From: Peptoanaerobacter stomatis
GTDB taxonomy: Bacteria; Bacillota; Clostridia; Peptostreptococcales; Filifactoraceae
NCBI RefSeq assembly: GCF_000238095.2
Contig: NZ_JH815225.1
Coordinates: 62,001 to 126,000, forward strand
Direction: 5' to 3'
Length of the DNA: 64,000 nt
Shown here: piece after piece, positions 27,074-43,480 of the stretch
Layout of the letters: each line of letters starts with the position of its first letter
How positions within the stretch are numbered: position 1 is the first letter of the stretch
Program-made: the position numbers and the translations under genes
Notes under the pieces: generated by a model
Told to the model about the DNA's origin: nothing
Seen by the model: only the letters and a program-made list of their open reading frames with translations
The model's database searches: none

Positions 27074-27264
27074 TGTTATAATAAACTTTTAATAACTGTT
27101 TTGTTATGAGAGATAATTATGCTTGAATTGATACCGCTTAATGTGTGAATGTAAAGCATGACAAGTTTTATAATAAGTGTGATTATAATTTATTTTAACT
27201 GCACATGGCAGTATAAAAATATATTTAAATTTTATTTACTATATCTCTAATGAGAGGGGTTTTT

Positions 27265-27741
27265 ATGAAAAAATTTTATATATATTATTTTAATGATATA
27301 AACAGATATGTTACGATTGTAGATGAAGATTCTTATATAGTAAGTATAGAGTTTGATAAAATAAATTATGATTTTAACTATGAAGAAAGCGAAGCTATAT
27401 GCGTACTGAAAAAAGAACTTGATAAATATTTTGCTGGAGAATTAAAAGAGTTTAAAACAAAATATAAATTAAAAAATCTTACAGAATTTCAAATGAAAGT
27501 CTTAAAAGAAGTAGAGAAAGTTAAATATGGAGAGCATATAAGCTACAATGACATAGCTAAAGCAATAGGAAATCCTAAATCTGACAGGGCTATAGGAAAT
27601 GCAGTAGGAAAAAACCCTCTTCCTATAATAGTACCATGCCACAGGATAATAAGAAAAGATAAAAAACTTGGCGGATATACAGGAGGAACAGACATAAAAA
27701 TAAAACTCGTAGAGATAGAAGATATACTTATATCAAATTAA
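27265..27741 (+). CDS. ogt: Methylated-DNA-[protein]-cysteine S-methyltransferase
   Basis: A suicide DNA-repair protein that takes the methyl group from O6-methylguanine onto its active-site Cys. The 158 residues show the small N-terminal domain, helix-turn-helix segment (YGEHISYNDIAKAIGNPKSD), Asn hinge AIGNAVGKNP and active site IIVPCHRII followed by LGGYTGG. The start at 27265 was preferred to an upstream in-frame ATG at 27250 because GAGAGGGG lies 7 bases before it and the shorter N-terminus fits the family. Confidence 0.95.
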   Translation: MKKFYIYYFNDINRYVTIVDEDSYIVSIEFDKINYDFNYEESEAICVLKKELDKYFAGELKEFKTKYKLKNLTEFQMKVLKEVEKVKYGEHISYNDIAKAIGNPKSDRAIGNAVGKNPLPIIVPCHRIIRKDKKLGGYTGGTDIKIKLVEIEDILISN

Positions 27742-27852
27742 AAAGAGATATTTTTTATATATTTAAGTAAGTCTGAATTTAAATGTATTTTAGTACAAGT
27801 GTTATATTTTTATAAATTGTAAAATAAAGTGTAGTATTTTTTAAAATTTTTG

Positions 27853-27881
27853 TTGACAAAAAAATTATGACGGTATATAAT
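27853..27881 (+). promoter_or_regulatory. Strong sigma-A-type promoter for the leucine operon leader
   Basis: Perfect -35 TTGACA (27853-27858) and -10 TATAAT (27876-27881) with 17-base spacing. Transcription would begin near 27888, giving a leader of over 130 bases before the leader peptide and about 660 before leuA. Confidence 0.85.
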
Positions 27882-28020
27882 TAGCGAAATTAAAAAGACA
27901 ATGTTGTATGTGAATAAAGTACATTTTTTGATTTTAATTTTAAATTTATTGTTTTGTTATTATTGAATGTAGCTGATATTTTGTTGGATGTAAAGTCAGG
28001 TACAAGAAAGGAATTATAAA

Positions 28021-28074
28021 ATGAATTGGTCAATTTCTAACTCAAGACAATTGAATATACTCTTACTTAGTTGA
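28021..28074 (+). CDS. Leucine operon leader peptide
   Basis: A 17-codon frame, MNWSISNSRQLNILLLS, then TGA. An AAGGA site lies 7 bases upstream of ATG. Four of the 17 residues are Leu, three of them consecutive just before the end (CTC TTA CTT), with Ile in front. It sits 139 bases after the promoter and immediately before alternative hairpins and a terminator, ahead of leuA. This is the arrangement of a ribosome-mediated attenuator in which slow translation of Leu codons signals low charged tRNA-Leu. The peptide itself probably has no other role. Confidence 0.8.
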   Translation: MNWSISNSRQLNILLLS

Positions 28075-28083
28075 GGGACTGTG

Positions 28084-28197
28084 CCAAATCATTTTTTGAT
28101 AATTGGTATAGGCCCTGTTTGTGATAGGGCTTATACCAAGTGGAGTATCTAAACCGTTTGATATAGGCTTAAAAGCTTAAATCAGACGGTTTTTTTA
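28084..28197 (+). promoter_or_regulatory. Leucine attenuator: alternative hairpins and terminator
   Basis: Three structures are visible. Hairpin A: CCAAATCA (28084-28091) with TGATAATTGG (28097-28106). Hairpin B: TTGGTATA and GCCCT (28103-28116) with AGGGC and TATACCAA (28126-28139), sharing TTGG with A. Hairpin C: AAACCGT-TGAT (28151-28162) with ATCA-ACGGTTT (28181-28192) then a T run, a terminator. In addition 28127-28139 can pair with 28158-28170 (one mismatch), an antiterminator excluding both B and C. Formation of A would free that pairing. Confidence 0.75.
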
Positions 28198-28545
28198 TTT
28201 TAGTGCTGCTTTAAATTAATTATACTGATATTTATTTAATTGACTGGAAAATTTTTAGTTTTTATTTTATATTAATCAACATTTATGATGACATACCTTG
28301 AAAATTTTTTCAATTTATATTGTTATGAGTAATTATGATGTATTTTAATTACTATTTAACAGATTTTTAATATTGATTGTCGGATGAATGATTAAAAACA
28401 ATAATATTTATAATTTTATCTGATATCGCTATAAAACTTAATGCTGAAAATCATTAAAAATTCATATTATTTTTAAATCTTGTATTTATTTTGAAAAAAA
28501 ATTTTAAAATGAAAATTTACAAAATATAAAGGATAGGAGAAAATT

Positions 28546-30051
28546 ATGGAAAAAGTTAAGATTTTTGACACTACACTTAGGGATGGAGAGCAGACTCCAA
28601 GAGTTAATTTGAATAAAGAAGATAAGATTATGATTGCAAAACAATTAGAAAAATTGGGTGTAGACATTATAGAGGCAGGATTTCCGGCATCAAGCGTGGG
28701 AGATTTTGAAGGTGTGCGTGCAGTGGCTCAAGTTGTGGAAAAACCTATAGTGTGTGCCTTGTCAAGATTGGTAAAGGAAGACATACAAAGAGCGGCAGAA
28801 GCTTTAAAGTATGCGAAACATCCGAGGATACACGTATTTTTGGCTACAAGTGATATACATCTTAAGCATAAACTCAAGATGACAAGACAGCAAGTAATAG
28901 ACAGAACGAGAGAATTGGTATCTTATGCTAAAACATTCGTCGATGACATTCAATTTTCAGCGGAAGATGCTACAAGAACAGACAAAGATTATCTTTGCCA
29001 AGTATATAAGGTGGCGATAAGTTCAGGAGCTACTACTATCAACGTACCTGATACTGTAGGATTTATTCAGCCGATGGAATATTATGAATTTATCTCATAC
29101 ATCAAGAAAAATACCAAGGGTGTCGAAAATGTGACAATATCGGCACATTGCCATGATGATTTGGGACTTGCTACAGCAAATGCACTTTCAGGAGTAATGG
29201 CAGGGGTAAGACAGATAGAATGTACGATTAACGGACTTGGCGAAAGAGCCGGAAATACAGCGCTTGAAGAGGCTGTAATGGCGATAGATACCAGAAGCGA
29301 TATGTATGGTATAAGCACAAATATCAACACAAGACAGATATACAAGACATCAAAACTTGTAACGTCGCTTACAGGTGTGGAAATAGCACCTACAAAATCT
29401 GTGATAGGCGAAAATTGTTTCTTGCATGAATCCGGCATACATCAAGATGGTATCATCAAGAACAGATCAACTTATGAAATAATGGATTCATCAAAGATAG
29501 GCATACCGAAAAATGACGGTCTTGTTCTTGGAAAACATTCGGGTAGACATGCTTTTAAGGTATTTTTGGAACATAACGGATTTCACTTTGAAGATGAAAA
29601 GATAAATGAGGCTTTTGCGGAGTTCAAAAAATTGACGGATACAAAAAAATACGTAACTGTAGAAGACATTACATCTTTACTTACAAACGGCGAAGTGGAA
29701 AAAGAAAACTATTCATTTGTAAGCTACCACTCAGCTACTCTTGAAGATAAGGTTACACAAGTAAGTGTATTATTGCAAAAAGACGGACAGATTATACAGC
29801 AGACAGCAGTGGGCAATGGACAGGTGGATGCGTCTTACAAGGCAATAAATAAGATAGTCAATCAACCTATCGAGATAATAAACTATGAAATCAATGCAGT
29901 ATCTTCGCAAAGCGACGCTCTCGGTGAGGCAAGAGTAAGACTCAAACTTGGTAATAGAGAGATAAATACATCCGGACTTGATGTTGACATCATCAAGGCG
30001 TCGATCTTGGCATATATTCAAGGTATTAATAAATTGGGATTGGAGTTTTAG
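28546..30051 (+). CDS. leuA: 2-isopropylmalate synthase
   Basis: First committed step of leucine synthesis: acetyl-CoA plus 2-oxoisovalerate to 2-isopropylmalate. The 501 residues comprise a TIM-barrel catalytic domain (FDTTLRDGEQTPRVNLN near residue 7, metal ligands in ISAHCHDDLGLATANAL, NGLGERAGNTALEE) and a C-terminal regulatory domain (about 380-501) that normally binds leucine. Length is that of the long LeuA type. GGATAGGAG precedes ATG. leuB starts two bases after its stop. Base composition is richer in G+C than the flanking regions. Confidence 0.97.
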   Translation: MEKVKIFDTTLRDGEQTPRVNLNKEDKIMIAKQLEKLGVDIIEAGFPASSVGDFEGVRAVAQVVEKPIVCALSRLVKEDIQRAAEALKYAKHPRIHVFLATSDIHLKHKLKMTRQQVIDRTRELVSYAKTFVDDIQFSAEDATRTDKDYLCQVYKVAISSGATTINVPDTVGFIQPMEYYEFISYIKKNTKGVENVTISAHCHDDLGLATANALSGVMAGVRQIECTINGLGERAGNTALEEAVMAIDTRSDMYGISTNINTRQIYKTSKLVTSLTGVEIAPTKSVIGENCFLHESGIHQDGIIKNRSTYEIMDSSKIGIPKNDGLVLGKHSGRHAFKVFLEHNGFHFEDEKINEAFAEFKKLTDTKKYVTVEDITSLLTNGEVEKENYSFVSYHSATLEDKVTQVSVLLQKDGQIIQQTAVGNGQVDASYKAINKIVNQPIEIINYEINAVSSQSDALGEARVRLKLGNREINTSGLDVDIIKASILAYIQGINKLGLEF

Positions 30052-30053
30052 TT

Positions 30054-31100
30054 ATGAAAAATATTCTTTGTATTGCAGGTGACGGCATAGGACCTGAGAT
30101 AATGAATTCCGCTCTTGAAATTTTGGAAGTCGTATCAAAAAAATATGCTTTTAAATATAAAATAGAAGAAGAATTTTTCGGTGGAGCGTCTATTGATGCC
30201 TATGGCGAGCCTTTTTCAGATAAGCTGAAAGAAAAAATAGAAAATTGTGATGCCATATTGATGGGCTCAGTAGGAGGACCAAAGTGGGATAACGCAAAGA
30301 TAAGACCTGAAGCCGGATTACTCGCACTTAGAAAACATCTAAAAGTTTATGCAAATGTAAGACCGCTCAAAGTAGAGGACTCTCTTTGTTATTTATCACC
30401 GCTCAAAGAAGAGATTGTCAAAGGCACTGATTTGATGATAGTAAGAGAATTGACAGGCGGAGCATATTTTGGAGAGCCGAGAAGACTTGAAGAAAAAGAG
30501 GCGCTTGACTCTATCACCTACACATACGAAGAGATTGAGCAGATAGTAAGATATGCTTTTGAAACAGCAAGAAAAAGAAGAAAAAAACTTACTTCTGTAG
30601 ACAAAGCTAATGTACTTGCCACAAGCAAACTATGGCGAAAAGTTGTGGAAGATGTAGCAAAAGACTATACCGATGTGGAACTTGAGCATATGTATGTGGA
30701 TGCTATGGCTATGGCGCTTATAACCAATCCCACTAAATATGACGTGATAGTGACGGAAAATCTCTTCGGAGACATATTGTCCGACGAAGTCAGCGTACTT
30801 GGTGGTTCACTTGGACTACTTTCATCGGCAAGCTACAGCAAGAGTAAAATTGCACTTTACGAGCCTGCACACGGATCCGCTCCTGATATTGCAGGTATGG
30901 ATATCGCCAATCCAATAGCGATGATATACTCTCTTACTATGATGCTGAGATATTCATTTTCACAAGATAAGATGGCAGAAGATATAGAAAATGCGGTGAA
31001 GTTGGTTTTGGATGAAGGATGTATGACCAAGGATTTAAATAGTCAATATTATGTAAGCACAAGTGAATTTACAAAAAAAGTAATTCAAAGACTTGGATAA
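30054..31100 (+). CDS. leuB: 3-isopropylmalate dehydrogenase
   Basis: NAD-dependent oxidation and decarboxylation of 3-isopropylmalate in leucine synthesis. The 348 residues begin ILCIAGDGIGPEIMNSALEI, contain ILMGSVGGPKWDN, the substrate Arg segment LLALRKHLKVYANVRP, and the signature NLFGDILSDEVSVLGGSLGLL, which follows the usual family layout. GGAG lies inside the end of leuA, two bases upstream gene-to-gene, so translation is probably coupled. G+C in the line I counted (30781-30840) is 31 of 60. Confidence 0.97.
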   Translation: MKNILCIAGDGIGPEIMNSALEILEVVSKKYAFKYKIEEEFFGGASIDAYGEPFSDKLKEKIENCDAILMGSVGGPKWDNAKIRPEAGLLALRKHLKVYANVRPLKVEDSLCYLSPLKEEIVKGTDLMIVRELTGGAYFGEPRRLEEKEALDSITYTYEEIEQIVRYAFETARKRRKKLTSVDKANVLATSKLWRKVVEDVAKDYTDVELEHMYVDAMAMALITNPTKYDVIVTENLFGDILSDEVSVLGGSLGLLSSASYSKSKIALYEPAHGSAPDIAGMDIANPIAMIYSLTMMLRYSFSQDKMAEDIENAVKLVLDEGCMTKDLNSQYYVSTSEFTKKVIQRLG

Positions 31101-31297
31101 GATGAAATTGCAGACTTTAATTCAGGTTAAAATCGCTTATAATATTTTAAAATTTATAAAAGTATAAATATTAAAGCAAAGTTAAAATGTATATTAAATA
31201 AAGTGTATACAAAAAGTGAGAAACCGGATTATAAAGTTATAGTTATATTTGTAGATTAGTAATTTTAAATTTGAATATGGGAAAAGGTGTAGAAAAA

Positions 31298-32674
31298 ATG
31301 AAGACGTTATATGATAAGGTATGGGATGAACACGTGATTGCAATGGATTCCGACTTGTCACTTATCTACGTAGATATGCACTACATCCATGAGGTTACGT
31401 CTCCGCAGGCATTTGAAGGATTGGAGCTATCTGGTAGAAAGATAAGAAGACCGGACAAAACATTTGCAACCATGGATCACAACACACCTACAAAAATTGA
31501 AGAAAGAGCAAATATCACAGACGAGTTGGCAAAGCTGCAACTTGAAACACTAAAGCAAAACTGTATCAAAAATAATATCAAACTTGAAGATATGGACAGT
31601 GACTATAACGGCATAGTCCACATAATAGGACCTGAGAGTGGATATACAAGACCTGGAATGACGATAGTATGCGGAGATAGTCATACTGCTACTCATGGGG
31701 CGTTCGGAGCAGTAGCTTTCGGCATAGGAACTTCAGAGGTTGAACACGTATTTGCCACTCAGAGTATATGGCAGAGAAAACTAAAAAATCTTGGAGTGAA
31801 AATCATGGGTAAACTACCAAAAGGTGTATATGCAAAGGATATAATCCTTGCGTTTTTAAAAGAAAACGGCGTATCGGTAGGAGTATCATCAGCGATAGAG
31901 TTTTACGGTGACACTGTCAAGGATATGGACATGGAAGAGAGGATGACACTTTGCAATATGGCGATTGAGGGCGGTGCAAAGGTGGGGATGATTGCACCGG
32001 ATGAAAAGACTTTTGAATATATAAAAAATACAAAATACGGAGAAAATGAAAACCTTAAAAGTGATATAGAAAAATGGAAAAGTTATTTTACTGATGATGA
32101 AAGCTGTTTCGACAGAATAATAACCATGGACGTGAGCAATCTAAAACCACAGATAACATGGGGTACTAATCCGTCTATGACTGTGAATGTAGATGAAAAG
32201 TTTCCTATGATAACGGATGCATCTGATGAAAAAGCATACGCATATATGGATCTTGCGCCTAATCAGACATCTGCTGATATACCTGTTACAGAAGTGTTTA
32301 TAGGCTCATGTACCAACGGAAGATATTCTGATTTGGAAGAGGGAGCAAAGTATATTCAAGGTAAAAATGTCAACAAAAATATCAGAGCGGTAGTAGTACC
32401 CGGCTCCATGCAGGTAAAGCTCAAAGCTGAAAAAACAGGGCTTGCACAAAAATATATAGATGCCGGATTTGAGTGGAGGTTGCCGGGATGTTCTAGTTGC
32501 TTGGGTATGAATCCTGATATAATAGATCCGTACAAACACTGTATATCCACATCAAACAGAAATTTTGAAGGCAGACAAGGTAAAAATGCAAGGACACATT
32601 TGGTATCTCCGGCGATGGCCGTAGCATGTGCTGTAAACGGCAAGGTAGTTGATATCAGTAAAATAGATGTATGA
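31298..32674 (+). CDS. leuC: 3-isopropylmalate dehydratase, large subunit
   Basis: With LeuD it isomerises 2- to 3-isopropylmalate using a [4Fe-4S] cluster. Features: GDSHTATHGAFGAVAFGIGT near residue 125, the three cluster cysteines in FIGSCTNGR and PGCSSCLGMNPD, and NRNFEGRQG near the C-terminus. It is the long bacterial-type LeuC (458 residues). The ATG at 31298 was chosen for its AAGGTG site 7 bases upstream; TTG 31271 and ATG 31277 upstream are less well placed. A 197-base gap separates it from leuB; leuD follows by 13 bases. Confidence 0.96.
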   Translation: MKTLYDKVWDEHVIAMDSDLSLIYVDMHYIHEVTSPQAFEGLELSGRKIRRPDKTFATMDHNTPTKIEERANITDELAKLQLETLKQNCIKNNIKLEDMDSDYNGIVHIIGPESGYTRPGMTIVCGDSHTATHGAFGAVAFGIGTSEVEHVFATQSIWQRKLKNLGVKIMGKLPKGVYAKDIILAFLKENGVSVGVSSAIEFYGDTVKDMDMEERMTLCNMAIEGGAKVGMIAPDEKTFEYIKNTKYGENENLKSDIEKWKSYFTDDESCFDRIITMDVSNLKPQITWGTNPSMTVNVDEKFPMITDASDEKAYAYMDLAPNQTSADIPVTEVFIGSCTNGRYSDLEEGAKYIQGKNVNKNIRAVVVPGSMQVKLKAEKTGLAQKYIDAGFEWRLPGCSSCLGMNPDIIDPYKHCISTSNRNFEGRQGKNARTHLVSPAMAVACAVNGKVVDISKIDV

Positions 32675-32687
32675 AAAGGAGGAGAAA

Positions 32688-33260
32688 ATGAAATCATTTA
32701 CTGTATATAAGAGTAAGGTTGTCTGTATTTTAAATGACAATATAGATACCGATATATTGATACCCAAAAATTATCTCAAATCGGTAAAACGTACAGGGTT
32801 TGGAGATTTTGTATTTGCTCCTTGGAGATACGACAAGGATGGCAATAAGATAAAAGATTTTGTATTAAATCAGGAAAAGTATGCAGATGCATCGATACTG
32901 ATAACAGGCGAAAACTTCGGCTGTGGTTCCAGTAGGGAGCATGCAGCATGGGCACTTCAAGATTTCGGTATAAGAGTCGTCATAGCAGGCGGATACTCAG
33001 ATATATTTTATAACAACTGGCTGAACAACGGTAACGTGGCTATAAAACTGGACAGTGAAAAAAGGAAAATGCTTAGTGAGATAGCGGATGGCAAGGAGAT
33101 CGAAATTGATCTTATAAATCAAAAAATCTTATCGGGAGATTTGAGTATAGATTTTGAATTTCCTGAAATATATAAACAAAGGTTAATTGAAGGTAAGGAT
33201 GCAATAGATATAACTCTCGATTTGGAAGAAAAAATAAAAGAGTATGAAAATAGAGTGTAA
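32688..33260 (+). CDS. leuD: 3-isopropylmalate dehydratase, small subunit
   Basis: The swivel subunit partnering LeuC. The 190 residues contain LNDNIDTDILIPKNYL, the conserved ILITGENFGCGSSREHAAWAL-type substrate loop (about residues 64-84), and NNWLNNGN. Length is close to that of the LeuCD type paired with long LeuC. The start at 32688 has AAAGGAGGAG 4-8 bases upstream; an ATG at 32667 overlapping leuC is less likely. Confidence 0.96.
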   Translation: MKSFTVYKSKVVCILNDNIDTDILIPKNYLKSVKRTGFGDFVFAPWRYDKDGNKIKDFVLNQEKYADASILITGENFGCGSSREHAAWALQDFGIRVVIAGGYSDIFYNNWLNNGNVAIKLDSEKRKMLSEIADGKEIEIDLINQKILSGDLSIDFEFPEIYKQRLIEGKDAIDITLDLEEKIKEYENRV

Positions 33261-33380: not shown

Positions 33381-35042
33381 TTGAAAATGAATGGATCTCA
33401 TATCTTGGTAAATACTTTGTTGGAGCTTGGAGTAGATACTGTTTTCGGCTATCCGGGCGGTAGTGTCTTGAATATCTATGACGCAATGTATGACTATCAG
33501 GATAGGATAAAAAATATAATTACAAGTACGGAGCAGGGAGCGGCACATGCAGCCGACGGATATGCAAGAAGTACAGGCAAGGTGGGAGTAGCTCTTGCTA
33601 CTAGCGGTCCCGGAGCAACCAATCTCATTACAGGAATAGCCACAGCATTTATGGATAGCGTACCTGTGGTGTACATCACAGGCAATGTTGCACAAAATCT
33701 GATAGGCAAAGATTCATTTCAGGAGGTATATACTACCGGAATCACTATGGCTATAACAAAACACAACTTCGTTGTAAGAGAAGTAGGTAAGATTGCGGAT
33801 ACGATAAGGGAGGCTTTTCGTATAGCGGACAGTGGAAGAAAAGGTCCTGTCCTTGTCGATTTTCCAAAAGATGTTACAATAGCAGAGGGTGATTATGAAG
33901 TAAAAAAAGCGGAAACTAAAATTAAAAAAGAGTTTGATGATGAAAAACTGCTTGAAAAGATAGCCGACTTGATAAATAAATCAAAAAAACCTGTCATATA
34001 TTCAGGGGGAGGAGTAATAGCAAGTAATGCATATCAGGAGCTGAGAGATTTGATAGAAAAATCTTGCATACCGGCTTGTAACTCCATAATGGGAATAGGA
34101 AACCTTGATTATAACAGATATTTTTTAGGCATGGTGGGAATGCATGGCAGAGTAAGTACGAATTACGCCATAGACAACAGTGATTTGATAATAGCAATTG
34201 GTACGAGATTTTCAGACAGAACGGTTACAAATACGGATAAATTCGCACCGAGGGCAAAGATAATTCACATAGACATAGACGCCAGTGAGATAAGAAAAAA
34301 TGTTGATATAGACTATTATGTAATAGGAGATGTTAAAGATATTTTAGCAAAACTGCTACCGAAGATACAAAAGCAAGAGAGAGATAAATGGCTCGGAGAA
34401 ATTGAAAATTGGAAAAAATTGGACTATTTACAAGGAAGTTCTCCAAATTCTATAAATCCGAAAGAGTTATTCGAAAAACTCTCTGATATGGTGGGAGATG
34501 ATTCGATATTAGTGACTGATGTAGGGCAACATCAGATGTGGGCATGCCAATATTGCAAGGTGACAAAACCAAGACAATTTCTCACAAGTGCGGGGCTGGG
34601 AACTATGGGATATGGATATGGTGCAGCAATTGGAGCTAAGATTGCCAATCCTGAAAAGACAGTGGTTCATATAACAGGAGACGGCTCCTTTCATATGAAC
34701 TTAAACGAGGTGGCAACAGCAGTTAGATATGATGTCAAGATTATAACAGTAATTTTGAACAACGGTAATCTGGGAATGGTAAAACAGTTGCAACACTATT
34801 TGCACAACAAGAGATATGCCTACTCAAATTTTGAAAGGAGTACAGACTATGTAAAATTAGCCGACTCATTCGGAGCTGATGGATATAGATGTTATAATAT
34901 GTTGCAGTTTGAAGAATCTTTTGCAAATGCTATAAAAAATTACAAGTCCGCAATAATTGAATGCAAGATATCCGGCGATGAACAGGTATTACCGATGATA
35001 CCGGCTAACGGTACTATTGATGATTTGATAGTTTCTCATTGA
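33381..35042 (+). CDS. ilvB: Acetolactate synthase, catalytic subunit
   Basis: Thiamine-diphosphate enzyme making acetolactate or acetohydroxybutyrate for valine, leucine and isoleucine. The 553 residues contain the ThDP-activating Glu in TSTEQGAAHAADGYARS, FAD-domain sequence GIGNLDYNRYFLGMVGMHG, and the ThDP/Mg motif GDGSFHMNLNEVATAVRY...NN. TTG at 33381 is preferred because GGGGTGA lies 7 bases upstream; the ATG six bases later would be spaced 13. The regulatory subunit gene follows after 281 bases. Confidence 0.96.
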   Translation: MKMNGSHILVNTLLELGVDTVFGYPGGSVLNIYDAMYDYQDRIKNIITSTEQGAAHAADGYARSTGKVGVALATSGPGATNLITGIATAFMDSVPVVYITGNVAQNLIGKDSFQEVYTTGITMAITKHNFVVREVGKIADTIREAFRIADSGRKGPVLVDFPKDVTIAEGDYEVKKAETKIKKEFDDEKLLEKIADLINKSKKPVIYSGGGVIASNAYQELRDLIEKSCIPACNSIMGIGNLDYNRYFLGMVGMHGRVSTNYAIDNSDLIIAIGTRFSDRTVTNTDKFAPRAKIIHIDIDASEIRKNVDIDYYVIGDVKDILAKLLPKIQKQERDKWLGEIENWKKLDYLQGSSPNSINPKELFEKLSDMVGDDSILVTDVGQHQMWACQYCKVTKPRQFLTSAGLGTMGYGYGAAIGAKIANPEKTVVHITGDGSFHMNLNEVATAVRYDVKIITVILNNGNLGMVKQLQHYLHNKRYAYSNFERSTDYVKLADSFGADGYRCYNMLQFEESFANAIKNYKSAIIECKISGDEQVLPMIPANGTIDDLIVSH

Positions 35043-35323: not shown

Positions 35324-35836
35324 ATGGAAAGTCAAAAACTGGAAGTGCTTAGCATAGTAGTACAAAATAATTACGGAGTTCTTGCAAGGATATCGAGCTT
35401 ATTTGGAAGAAGAGGCTACAATATTGACACTCTCACAGTGTCAAACACCGATGATCCAAACATATCAAGGATAACATTGACTGTACAGGGATTTGAAAAT
35501 GAGATAAATCAAATTGTACTACAGACTTCAAAGTTGGAAGAGGTAATAAAGGTAGATGTTTTGGATCAAAACAAGTCTGTAATGAGAGAAATAGTGCTTG
35601 CCAAAATAAAGGCTACTCCTGACATAAGGAGTAAGATGGTAGAAGTAGTTTCAATATACAAGGGTTCTATTATAGATCTTTCACCTACGAGTATGATAGT
35701 GGAAGTAACAGGAAAACCTACAAAGATAAACGCATTTATAAAAGTATTGGAAGATTTTGAAATATTGGAAGTCTGTCGTACCGGCATCACAGCTATGTCA
35801 AGAGACAGTGACGAGATGATAATACGCAAAAAATAA
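35324..35836 (+). CDS. ilvN: Acetolactate synthase, regulatory (small) subunit
   Basis: This subunit binds valine and stimulates the catalytic subunit. The 170 residues carry an N-terminal ACT domain (LSIVVQNNYGVLARISSLFG, then RGYNIDTLTVS) and a C-terminal domain (VVSIYKGSIIDLSPTSMIVE). Length fits the IlvH/IlvN group; the symbol ilvH would be equally valid. AAAGGAGG lies 6 bases before ATG. The 281-base gap before it shows no recognisable feature. Confidence 0.95.
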   Translation: MESQKLEVLSIVVQNNYGVLARISSLFGRRGYNIDTLTVSNTDDPNISRITLTVQGFENEINQIVLQTSKLEEVIKVDVLDQNKSVMREIVLAKIKATPDIRSKMVEVVSIYKGSIIDLSPTSMIVEVTGKPTKINAFIKVLEDFEILEVCRTGITAMSRDSDEMIIRKK

Positions 35837-35929
35837 TTTTTAATTAATTCTCAAGAATTGATACTGATTTTTTTTCATTAGTTATTTATTTAAGGATATT
35901 AATTGTAAAAAACGAAAAGGATGATTAAA

Positions 35930-36925
35930 ATGATTAAAAAATATTATGATAAAGATTGTAATTTGGATTTATTGAAAGATAAAAAAGTAGCTATAATAGG
36001 ATATGGCAGTCAAGGGCATGCTCACGCTTTGAACTTAAAAGAAAGTGGAGTAAATGTGATAGTAGGACTTAAAGAAGGTAGCAAATCTGTAGAAATTGCA
36101 AAATCTCAAGGTCTTACAGTTATGAATGTACATGACGCTGCAAAAGCAGCGGATATAGTAATGATGCTCGTGCCTGATGAAATATCTGCAGACATCTATA
36201 ACGAACAGGTAGCACCTCATATGAAAAAAGGTGATGTACTTATGTATGCACACGGTTTTAACATCTATTATAATCTTGTAATACCAAGCGAAGACATAGA
36301 TGTAATAATGGTAGCTCCGAAAGGACCGGGACATACTGTAAGAAGTCAATATCAAATAGGACAAGGAGTACCGTCACTTATAGCCATATATCAGGATAAA
36401 TCAGGTAAAGCAAAAGACTATGCACTTGCGTATGCGTCAGGAATAGGAGCAGGAAGAGCCGGTATACTTGAAACTACATTCAGACAGGAAACTGAAACTG
36501 ACTTGTTCGGTGAACAGGCTGTGCTTTGTGGAGGAGTAACAGAGCTTATGAAAGCGGGATTTGAAACTCTTGTAGAAGCGGGATATGAACCGGAGATGGC
36601 ATATTTTGAGTGTATACATGAGATGAAACTGATAGTGGATTTGATAGTGGAAGGTGGATTCTCTAATATGAGAAATTCAATATCAAATACTGCTGAATAT
36701 GGTGACTACACTGCCGGAAAGAGAATAATCGGAGATCAAACGAGAAAAGCTATGAAGGAAATATTGTCAGACATACAAGATGGTACATTTGCAAGCAACT
36801 TTATGACTGAATTCTCATCAGGAAGAAAGACAAGATTCCTTTCAACAAGGAGAAAAGAAGCTGAGCATAAATTAGAAGAAGTAGGTAAGGAACTTCGTTC
36901 AATGATGAATTGGTTGAAAAAATAA
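35930..36925 (+). CDS. ilvC: Ketol-acid reductoisomerase (class I)
   Basis: NADPH- and Mg-dependent second step of branched-chain amino-acid synthesis. The 331 residues include the nucleotide loop [34 protein letters not shown], and the acidic metal site [16 protein letters not shown]. Length marks class I. The ATG at 35930 was chosen over 35921 because AAAAGGA is then 8 bases upstream and the N-terminus matches the usual [10 protein letters not shown] start. An aminotransferase follows 63 bases later. Confidence 0.97.
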
Positions 36926-36988: not shown

Positions 36989-38134
36989 ATGAAAAATTTT
37001 ATTGCGAAAAAATATCAAAAAATAAGAGATAACGCATTTTCAACAAATGAACAGATAAATTACGACGATATCATAGATTTTTCCATAGGAGATATTGACT
37101 TTACTACAGATATGGAGATTATAAACAGTGCATTTGAAGATGCAAAAAAAGGTTATACTAGCTATACAGAGTCATCAGGCTTAGTAGAGCTTAGAGATGA
37201 AATATGTAAGTATCAAAAAGAGGAATACGGTCTTGACATAACAAACGATGAAGTATTTGTCAGCACCTCAGCCTGTCATGCTATGTATCTTGCCATGAGT
37301 TGTATAATAGACGAGGGAGATGAGGTAATCATACCTACACCACATTTTTCTATCTATGATTTTTGTATAGAGTCCAAGGGAGGCAAGGTAGTGTATCTGC
37401 CGACTTATGAAGAAGAGGACTTTGGCATAGATGTACAGAGATTGGAAGATTTGATAAATCCAAAGACAAAGGCACTCATCATAAACACGCCGAATAACCC
37501 TACAGGTACCTGCCTTAGTAAAGAAAATCTTGAAGACATAGCAAAGATAGTGCAAAAATACGATATTTTGGTAGTTGCTGATGATATATACACGCTTTTA
37601 AGTTTTCAGAACCCTTTTATTCCGATAGCTTCTGTCAAAAATATGAAGGATAGAGTAATAACTATTAGAAGTTTTTCTAAAGACTTTGCAATGACAGGTT
37701 GGAGGATAGGATATATAATAGCTTCTAAGGAATATATAAGAGTGGTAAAAGCGATAAATGACAATATAATATATTCAGCTCCTTCAATATCACAAAGAGC
37801 TGCACTGCATGCACTGAGAAGCAGAAAGAAAATACAGGAGTTTATAAAAAAAGAATTTGAAGATAGGTTGAATCTGGCATATGAAAAAATATCTCGAATA
37901 CCTAAACTCAAGGTCTTGCCTGTAAAAGGTACTTTTTATATGTTTGTAAATATCAAGTCGACAGGGATGAGCTGTGAAGAGTTTTGCGAGGAAGCGAAAG
38001 AAAAATATCACATACTTATGATACCTGGAACTGCATTCGGAGAATATGGGCAAGGTTATGTAAGACTTGCGATGACGCTTCCTAAAGATAAGATACAAGA
38101 GGCGTTTGACAGGATAGAAAAATGGCTTAAATGA
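36989..38134 (+). CDS. Class I/II PLP-dependent aminotransferase
   Basis: The 381 residues show the fold-type I features: TPNNPTGTCLSKENL, the Asp-x-x-Tyr of ADDIYTLL, the PLP lysine in RSFSKDFAMTGWRIGY, and a C-terminal YVRLAMTLP. It resembles aspartate/aromatic aminotransferases. Its position right after ilvC, on the same strand with GAGG before ATG, suggests use in transaminating branched-chain keto acids or in supplying glutamate, but substrate cannot be decided from sequence. Confidence 0.88.
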   Translation: MKNFIAKKYQKIRDNAFSTNEQINYDDIIDFSIGDIDFTTDMEIINSAFEDAKKGYTSYTESSGLVELRDEICKYQKEEYGLDITNDEVFVSTSACHAMYLAMSCIIDEGDEVIIPTPHFSIYDFCIESKGGKVVYLPTYEEEDFGIDVQRLEDLINPKTKALIINTPNNPTGTCLSKENLEDIAKIVQKYDILVVADDIYTLLSFQNPFIPIASVKNMKDRVITIRSFSKDFAMTGWRIGYIIASKEYIRVVKAINDNIIYSAPSISQRAALHALRSRKKIQEFIKKEFEDRLNLAYEKISRIPKLKVLPVKGTFYMFVNIKSTGMSCEEFCEEAKEKYHILMIPGTAFGEYGQGYVRLAMTLPKDKIQEAFDRIEKWLK

Positions 38135-39553: not shown

Positions 39554-39582
39554 TTGACAAAATAACTATTTTACTATATAAT
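39554..39582 (+). promoter_or_regulatory. Promoter of rplS
   Basis: TTGACA (39554-39559) and TATAAT (39577-39582) with 17-base spacing, just downstream of the insertion sequence. It allows rplS to be expressed independently of anything upstream. Confidence 0.85.
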
Positions 39583-43334: not shown

Positions 43335-43350
43335 TAAGTTACAATTAAAT

Positions 43351-43480
43351 ATCGTACCATAGACAGTAGGAGCGTATGCTTAAAAAATAATCCTACTTAG
43401 GTAATATAAAAATTTTTTAGCCTATTTTTGTCTATGTTATGATAATAATAGGTTTTTTATTTTATAAAAAGCCTATTTCT
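43351..43480 (+). promoter_or_regulatory. L10 leader with attenuator
   Basis: The classic ribosomal L10(L12)4-binding leader. CATAGACA (43358-43365) pairs with TGTCTATG (43429-43436); inside, GTAGGA (43366-43371) pairs with TCCTAC (43391-43396). Downstream, AATAGG (43447-43452) can pair either with the preceding CCTATT (antiterminator) or with CCTATT at 43472-43477 to form a terminator-like stem. Excess L10-L12 would reduce rplJL expression. Confidence 0.85.

Follow-up and report, generated by a model that had tools for sequence, protein, structure and literature searches.

Ribosome-mediated transcription attenuation is known from the leu and his operons of Escherichia coli and Salmonella, where the position of the ribosome on control codons selects between a terminator and an antiterminator, and it is taught as a mainly proteobacterial strategy that the Firmicutes replace by T-boxes. 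In Staphylococcus aureus, the leucine-rich attenuator peptide of ilvD has experimental support (Kaiser et al. 2018, PMC5794164); like the leader described here, it is a peptide with Leu/Ile codons that controls ilv-leu genes in a Firmicute, at a place where no T-box is found, while it differs in having three Ile and five Leu codons within 26 aa, in its arms, and in an antiterminator that lies on the U-tail. His-codon leaders have been published for Peptostreptococcaceae, Lutispora and Erysipelotrichales (Ashniev et al. 2022, PMC9413887), and hisS*/hisZ leaders for Bacillus (PMC2965389). The former are similar to the present leader in that a His-codon peptide, an attenuator, an antiterminator and a terminator stand before the his operons of Clostridioides and its relatives, and several of the His loci found in this study are probably the same elements; however, that work concerns histidine only, in separate lineages, and its text does not relate these leaders to any for leucine or tyrosine, nor to a shared core. 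Two further elements are relevant, namely the trpB motif (RF04312), presented in 2024 as a strong riboswitch candidate of unknown ligand, with a classic attenuator left open and an antiterminator noted in the right shoulder of its P1 stem (PMC11109978), and sRNA_2410 (RF02863) of Enterococcus faecium, treated as a small RNA with no mention of a leader peptide or attenuation (PMC5593968). While the His leaders of Peptostreptococcaceae are thus already published, neither a joint family nor a leucine member was found in the literature searched, which included few subscription papers.

The window (the whole stretch of 64,000 nucleotides that was analysed) derives from the oral bacterium Peptoanaerobacter stomatis, in which a short RNA leader precedes the leucine biosynthesis genes. 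The LeuA protein encoded there shares 95% identity with its counterpart in [Eubacterium] yurii ATCC 43714, which belongs to the genus Peptoanaerobacter (Filifactoraceae), and the E. yurii leader aligns throughout, with the same promoter, Shine-Dalgarno sequence (SD), open reading frame (ORF) and all arms. The leader comprises the following features, in window coordinates:

27853-27881, plus strand: sigma-70 type promoter TTGACA-17-TATAAT, 12/12 consensus positions, kept in E. yurii (locus L002)
28008-28012, plus strand: Shine-Dalgarno AAGGA, placed 8 nt ahead of the leader peptide's ATG, from the sequence
28021-28074, plus strand: leader peptide ORF MNWSISNSRQLNILLLS followed by a stop, 17 codons from ATG 28021; the E. 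yurii counterpart is MTCSVSNSRQLNTLILILR followed by a stop
28051-28068, plus strand: Leu control codons TTG 28051, CTC 28060, TTA 28063 and CTT 28066, from the sequence
28074-28085, plus strand: arm 1 AGGGACTGTGCC, predicted to be covered by the ribosome; mask folds and 1:2 covariation in relatives
28105-28116, plus strand: arm 2 GGTATAGGCCCT, partner of arm 1 or arm 3; folds and covariation
28126-28137, plus strand: arm 3 AGGGCTTATACC, partner of arm 2 or arm 4; folds, covariation and compensatory changes between leu and his leaders
28157-28170, plus strand: arm 4, antiterminator partner of 28127-28140; 3:4 covariation in relatives
28151-28196, plus strand: intrinsic terminator with stem 28151-28162/28181-28192, an inner stem and a U-run to 28196; folding

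The promoter and the 17-codon frame with CTC, TTA, CTT, Ser and stop, both claimed in an earlier note made from the sequence, were confirmed, with TTG 28051 bringing the Leu codons to four in all; the last of these is followed by Ser and the stop codon (28072-28074). Hairpin A of that note exists, but merely as the apical part of a longer hairpin (28074-28116) in which arms 1 and 2 form 11 of 12 pairs (28074-28085 with 28105-28116), with one A.G mismatch, plus AUCA/UGAU. Hairpin B (28103-28139, which contains arm 3) and the terminator (noted as 28151-28192) both appear in the computed fold, and the antiterminator pairing is as the note described it, with 13 of 14 pairs between 28127-28140 and 28157-28170. 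Arms 1 and 3 are near direct repeats of each other, and arm 4 is part of the 5' side of the terminator. The fold of the leader is more stable than that of its shuffles (z = -6.2). Between the terminator and leuA lie about 350 nt (28200-28545) of AT-rich, unconserved and untranslated sequence; the gap measures 348 nt in the window and, by the same count, 386 nt in E. yurii, and 1-231 nt in more distant relatives. Directly upstream of the leader is an ogt-type methylated-DNA cysteine methyltransferase gene (27250-27741). The controlled block consists of the following genes, the last of which is probably its end:

28546-30051, plus strand: leuA, 2-isopropylmalate synthase (NCBIfam), first gene of the block
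30054-31100, plus strand: leuB (TIGR00169)
31271-32674, plus strand: leuC (TIGR00170)
32667-33260, plus strand: leuD (TIGR00171)
33381-35042, plus strand: ilvB (TIGR00118)
35324-35836, plus strand: ilvN (TIGR00119)
35921-36925, plus strand: ilvC (TIGR00465)
36989-38134, plus strand: class I/II aminotransferase (PF00155)

Elsewhere in the window, a second 12/12 promoter (39554-39582) precedes the gene for ribosomal protein L19 (39641-40009), and a ribosomal protein L10 leader (RF00557) was found at 43339-43467.

Three properties by which an attenuator can be recognised were found at this locus: an ORF that follows an SD and in which codons for the amino acid made by the operon recur (four Leu codons), an intrinsic terminator between this ORF and the first gene (28151-28196) and, by computation from folds and covariation, a mutually exclusive antiterminator chosen by ribosome position. 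The arrangement differs from that of E. coli and Salmonella in that arm 1 overlaps the stop codon and extends past it, and in that the exclusive sets are 1:2 plus 3:4 as against 2:3 plus the terminator; none of the Rfam leader families matched the window leader. Because of this position of arm 1, a stalled ribosome would leave it free, while a ribosome that finishes the peptide would cover it. As RNA polymerase makes the leader, a ribosome would translate the 17-codon ORF. With little charged Leu-tRNA, it would stall on the Leu codons (the first CTC at 28060) and leave arm 1 (28074-28085) available to take up arm 2, so that arm 3 would be free for the 3:4 pairing, no terminator would form and transcription would continue into leuA and onward. 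With enough Leu-tRNA, the ribosome would reach the stop codon (28072-28074) with its footprint over arm 1, arm 2 would pair with arm 3, and arm 4 would be left to the terminator; untranslated leader RNA would likewise form 2:3 and then terminate. Stalling, read-through and the response to leucine are what we infer from the anatomy, conservation, covariation, folding and agreement of codons with downstream genes that were observed.

These states were modelled by masking the RNA to 12 nt past the first base of the A-site codon and folding it, at the length reached once arm 4 is complete, with no ribosome, with a stalled ribosome and with a ribosome at the stop codon. In the window leader the antiterminator had a probability of 0.48 with the ribosome stalled on the Leu codons, as against 0.00 both without translation and with the ribosome at the stop codon; in E. 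yurii it was 0.84 for the stalled state, 0.01 without translation and 0.00 with the ribosome at the stop codon. The regulatory logic put forward in the earlier note (stalling allows A and the antiterminator, a ribosome at the stop codon allows B and the terminator) agrees with these modelled values; the segment that it took to be covered by the ribosome at the stop codon, 28084-28091, had to be replaced by arm 1, approximately 28074-28085. Since the terminator state was always preferred in equilibrium folding of the full-length leader RNA, the decision must be kinetic. Furthermore, with strict masking, 1:2 ceased to be favoured when the ribosome stalled at the second or the third of the consecutive Leu codons, and hence it is on the first ones that the switch must depend. 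In some untranslated folds, although not consistently, the segment with the Leu codons (28057-28068) paired with the linker (28138-28148).

Conservation of the peptide and of the paired arms in relatives had been named as a decisive point, and E. yurii indeed retains the leader ORF, four Leu codons and the arms, with 89% identity over 28020-28200 and with AAGAAAGGAATT around the SD intact. Its ORF has two additional codons, and with one Leu codon changed to Ile and a new one gained, the total remains four at shifted positions. The leucine subtype was found in these two close species only. The element is absent from the other genomes of the family and has no second copy in its own genome, the nearest other LeuA (65%, locus L105) has no such leader upstream, and no similar leucine leader was found upstream of leuA in about 40 other Clostridia and members of other phyla, where T-box-like strings or nothing were seen.

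A wider family became apparent through covariance models. The first model, built from the two leu leaders only, gave few and weak matches when searched in 394 genomes of the order, among them a histidine leader, MKNSQITIKLNIQLHHHHHRTKGL followed by a stop (locus L136), with the same arms and located before an amino-acid binding protein. A second model, to which this leader was added, found about 20 further leaders within one bacterial family, and a third model returned about 95 places in 68 of the 394 genomes and matches in 18 of 381 genomes of the class; as the third model includes the leu sequences, its scores for the leu leaders are by construction. On inspection, nine matches were rejected as chance terminators or coding sequence (L134, L135, L138 and L139 from the first model, L151 and L158 from the second, L168, L169 and L212 from the third). 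Across Clostridia, about 100 relatives thus have the same arms. Their ORFs are preceded by an SD and contain runs such as HHHH, YYYYY, YYYFSYFS and FFFSFF at the place where the window leader and E. yurii have four Leu codons, and are followed in order by arm 1 GGGTTTGTATTTATGAT, arm 2 ATCATAGATACAAAC, arm 3 GTTTGTATCTATGATGG and the terminator GCCACATAGAT...CTATGTGGC. Throughout the family arm 1 almost repeats arm 3 in direct orientation, arm 2 is contested by both, and the 5' side of the terminator has its complement in the tail of arm 3. The window leader conforms to the definition of the family, having arms 1-4 in register, an arm 1 that repeats arm 3, and an ORF that ends in or just before arm 1. 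In some members a second, near-identical terminator hairpin (CACATAGT..ACTATGTGGC TTTTTT) follows a few bases after the first (L152 after 1580, L228 near 3030).

The first downstream genes were clustered, and Pfam and NCBIfam supplied the names of representatives. Wherever a member has a gene downstream, its control codons match that gene, with no exception. The His leaders precede 61 his-type genes (53 hisZ/hisS-like, seven SBP_bac_3, which is the his transporter class, and one histidinol dehydrogenase, hisD), the Tyr/Phe(/Trp) leaders precede 38 transporters (19 Branch_AA_trans, 11 SNF/NSS, seven BPD_transp_2 of the ABC type and one of the NhaC type), and the Leu leaders precede two leuA genes. 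As BrnQ-type transporters (LIVCS, PF05525) stand behind Tyr/Phe-codon leaders (L222, L188, L205, L227, L244 and 14 others), the codons suggest that these 'branched-chain' carriers import aromatic amino acids.

Covariation was assessed in 68 non-redundant members (<90% identity), as the earlier note had proposed for relatives, and all four alternative helices were supported. Standard pairs occupied 83% of cells in 1:2 (81 double changes, against a maximum of 35 in 200 shuffles), 96% in 2:3 (93 against 38), 89% in 3:4 (31 against 22) and 96% in the terminator (131 against 50); shared ancestry inflates these double-change counts, which are therefore strong evidence yet not formal probabilities. 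The 2:3 and terminator columns were fitted to the alignment model, while 1:2 and 3:4 lie outside it, and sliding one side of a helix by 1-3 columns reduced pairing from 83-96% to 21-57%. In 62 of the 68 members 1:2 was kept with a stall at the first control codon and lost with the ribosome at the stop codon. The median antiterminator probability was 0.04 without a ribosome, 0.82 stalled and 0.16 at the stop codon for Tyr/Phe members (n=26), and 0.02, 0.48 and 0.24, respectively, for His members (n=36).

Taken with the codon-gene match, these observations make it very probable that the leader is a ribosome-mediated transcription attenuator that reads the charging of leucyl-tRNA and is the leucine version of a family that extends across Clostridia, with one RNA core and exchangeable control codons. 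The leu attenuator of the earlier note is thereby upheld, while its portrayal as a single case is not, the leader being very likely one of many with interchangeable control codons.

The alternative that survives best, although it is itself improbable, is that the leu attenuator arose independently and that its likeness to the His and Tyr/Phe family reflects convergence on an architecture. In keeping with this, the sequence likeness is modest: a sequence HMM of the His members alone had its best window match at 28073-28143 with E = 0.02, an HMM of the Tyr/Phe members failed to find the leu leader, and the terminator sequence of the leu leader differs. Conversely, the covariance model built from the leu leaders alone found His members, reaching E-values down to 6.5e-9 against the family loci collected by the third model (below 0.05 at 18 of 63 loci, mostly in register), as compared with a best E of 0.21 against 40 control leuA loci. 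Furthermore, leu and his leaders align by sequence alone, with no help from structure, and this alignment reveals three compensatory pairs in hairpin B. The leu leaders and the Peptostreptococcaceae-type His set also have in common the position of the A.G mismatch in 1:2 and the sequence GTGGARTAT after arm 3, and leu and his leaders share (K/Q)LN before the control codons, all of which argues against independent origin. On these grounds, the leu leader likely shares descent with the his/tyr family. Among all 94 distinct leader peptides, (K/Q)LN is located directly before or near the control codons in 34, both leu peptides included.

A second alternative, that the 2:3 core is a riboswitch or protein-bound RNA that binds a small molecule (an amino acid) or a protein, with the ORF incidental, bears on the two Rfam entries. 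The P1 stem and terminator of the trpB motif equal arm 2:arm 3 and the terminator of the family, and family members score 42-57 bits against RF04312 in register, just below its gathering score of 59 (for example, L141 1530-1639 and L219 2958-3066), while there was no match to the window leader at E up to 1 or in 28 related genomes at E 0.01. This correspondence, the standing of the trpB motif as a strong riboswitch candidate (PMC11109978) and a core kept in sequence as well as in structure would fit such a reading. It is nevertheless very unlikely, as repeated codons that fit the downstream gene occur, in every well-placed member, within an ORF that follows an SD, and a single core serves His, Tyr/Phe and Leu genes. 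The constancy of arm sequence is explained by each arm having two partners, and RF04312 begins at arm 2, such that arm 1 and the ORF, just upstream, fall outside the model. sRNA_2410 covers the whole core of the Tyr/Phe-type members, and four of these (L228 3005-3200, L222, L253 and L237) attain the gathering score of RF02863, 61 bits; it has no match in the window. Since both entries match the family core, the trpB motif and sRNA_2410 are, judged by sequence, probably ribosome-read attenuators, and the Enterococcus sRNA, given the Tyr/Phe leaders at the gathering score, is probably an attenuated leader transcript.

That a leucine T-box or other known Rfam leader was overlooked is scarcely credible, for even though this genome has nine T-box matches (seven over the cut-off), the leader gave no match to the T-box (RF00230) or to any other Rfam family, even with E-values up to 1 admitted, in line with the statement of the earlier note that no T-box is present. 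An ordinary constitutive terminator next to a chance short ORF, with no regulation, is just as hard to credit: on the plus strand of the window no other short ORF has both an SD and a Leu-Leu-Leu ending, and while such an ORF appears by chance in roughly 1% of cases (30 of 3000 first-order Markov shuffles of 27841-28545), the conservation, the fold z-score, the mutual exclusion of the arms and the matching codons in about 100 relatives speak against this reading.

It is fairly likely that one ancestral RNA module, which has spread in Clostridia and probably in other Firmicutes and in Fusobacteria, is a general sensor of ribosome position re-targeted by codon swaps, and that it includes the trpB motif and sRNA_2410. 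Where T-boxes change their specifier, this proposed module would change the codons of its leader peptide in much the same way; the trpB motif would then not be a riboswitch, nor sRNA_2410 a trans-acting sRNA. These results point to a widespread Clostridial family whose members combine one conserved RNA core with differing control codons. They suggest a likely and testable function for an orphan riboswitch candidate (the trpB motif) and for a listed sRNA, and they allow control codons to predict the substrates of uncharacterised transporters (BrnQ-like, NSS and ABC).
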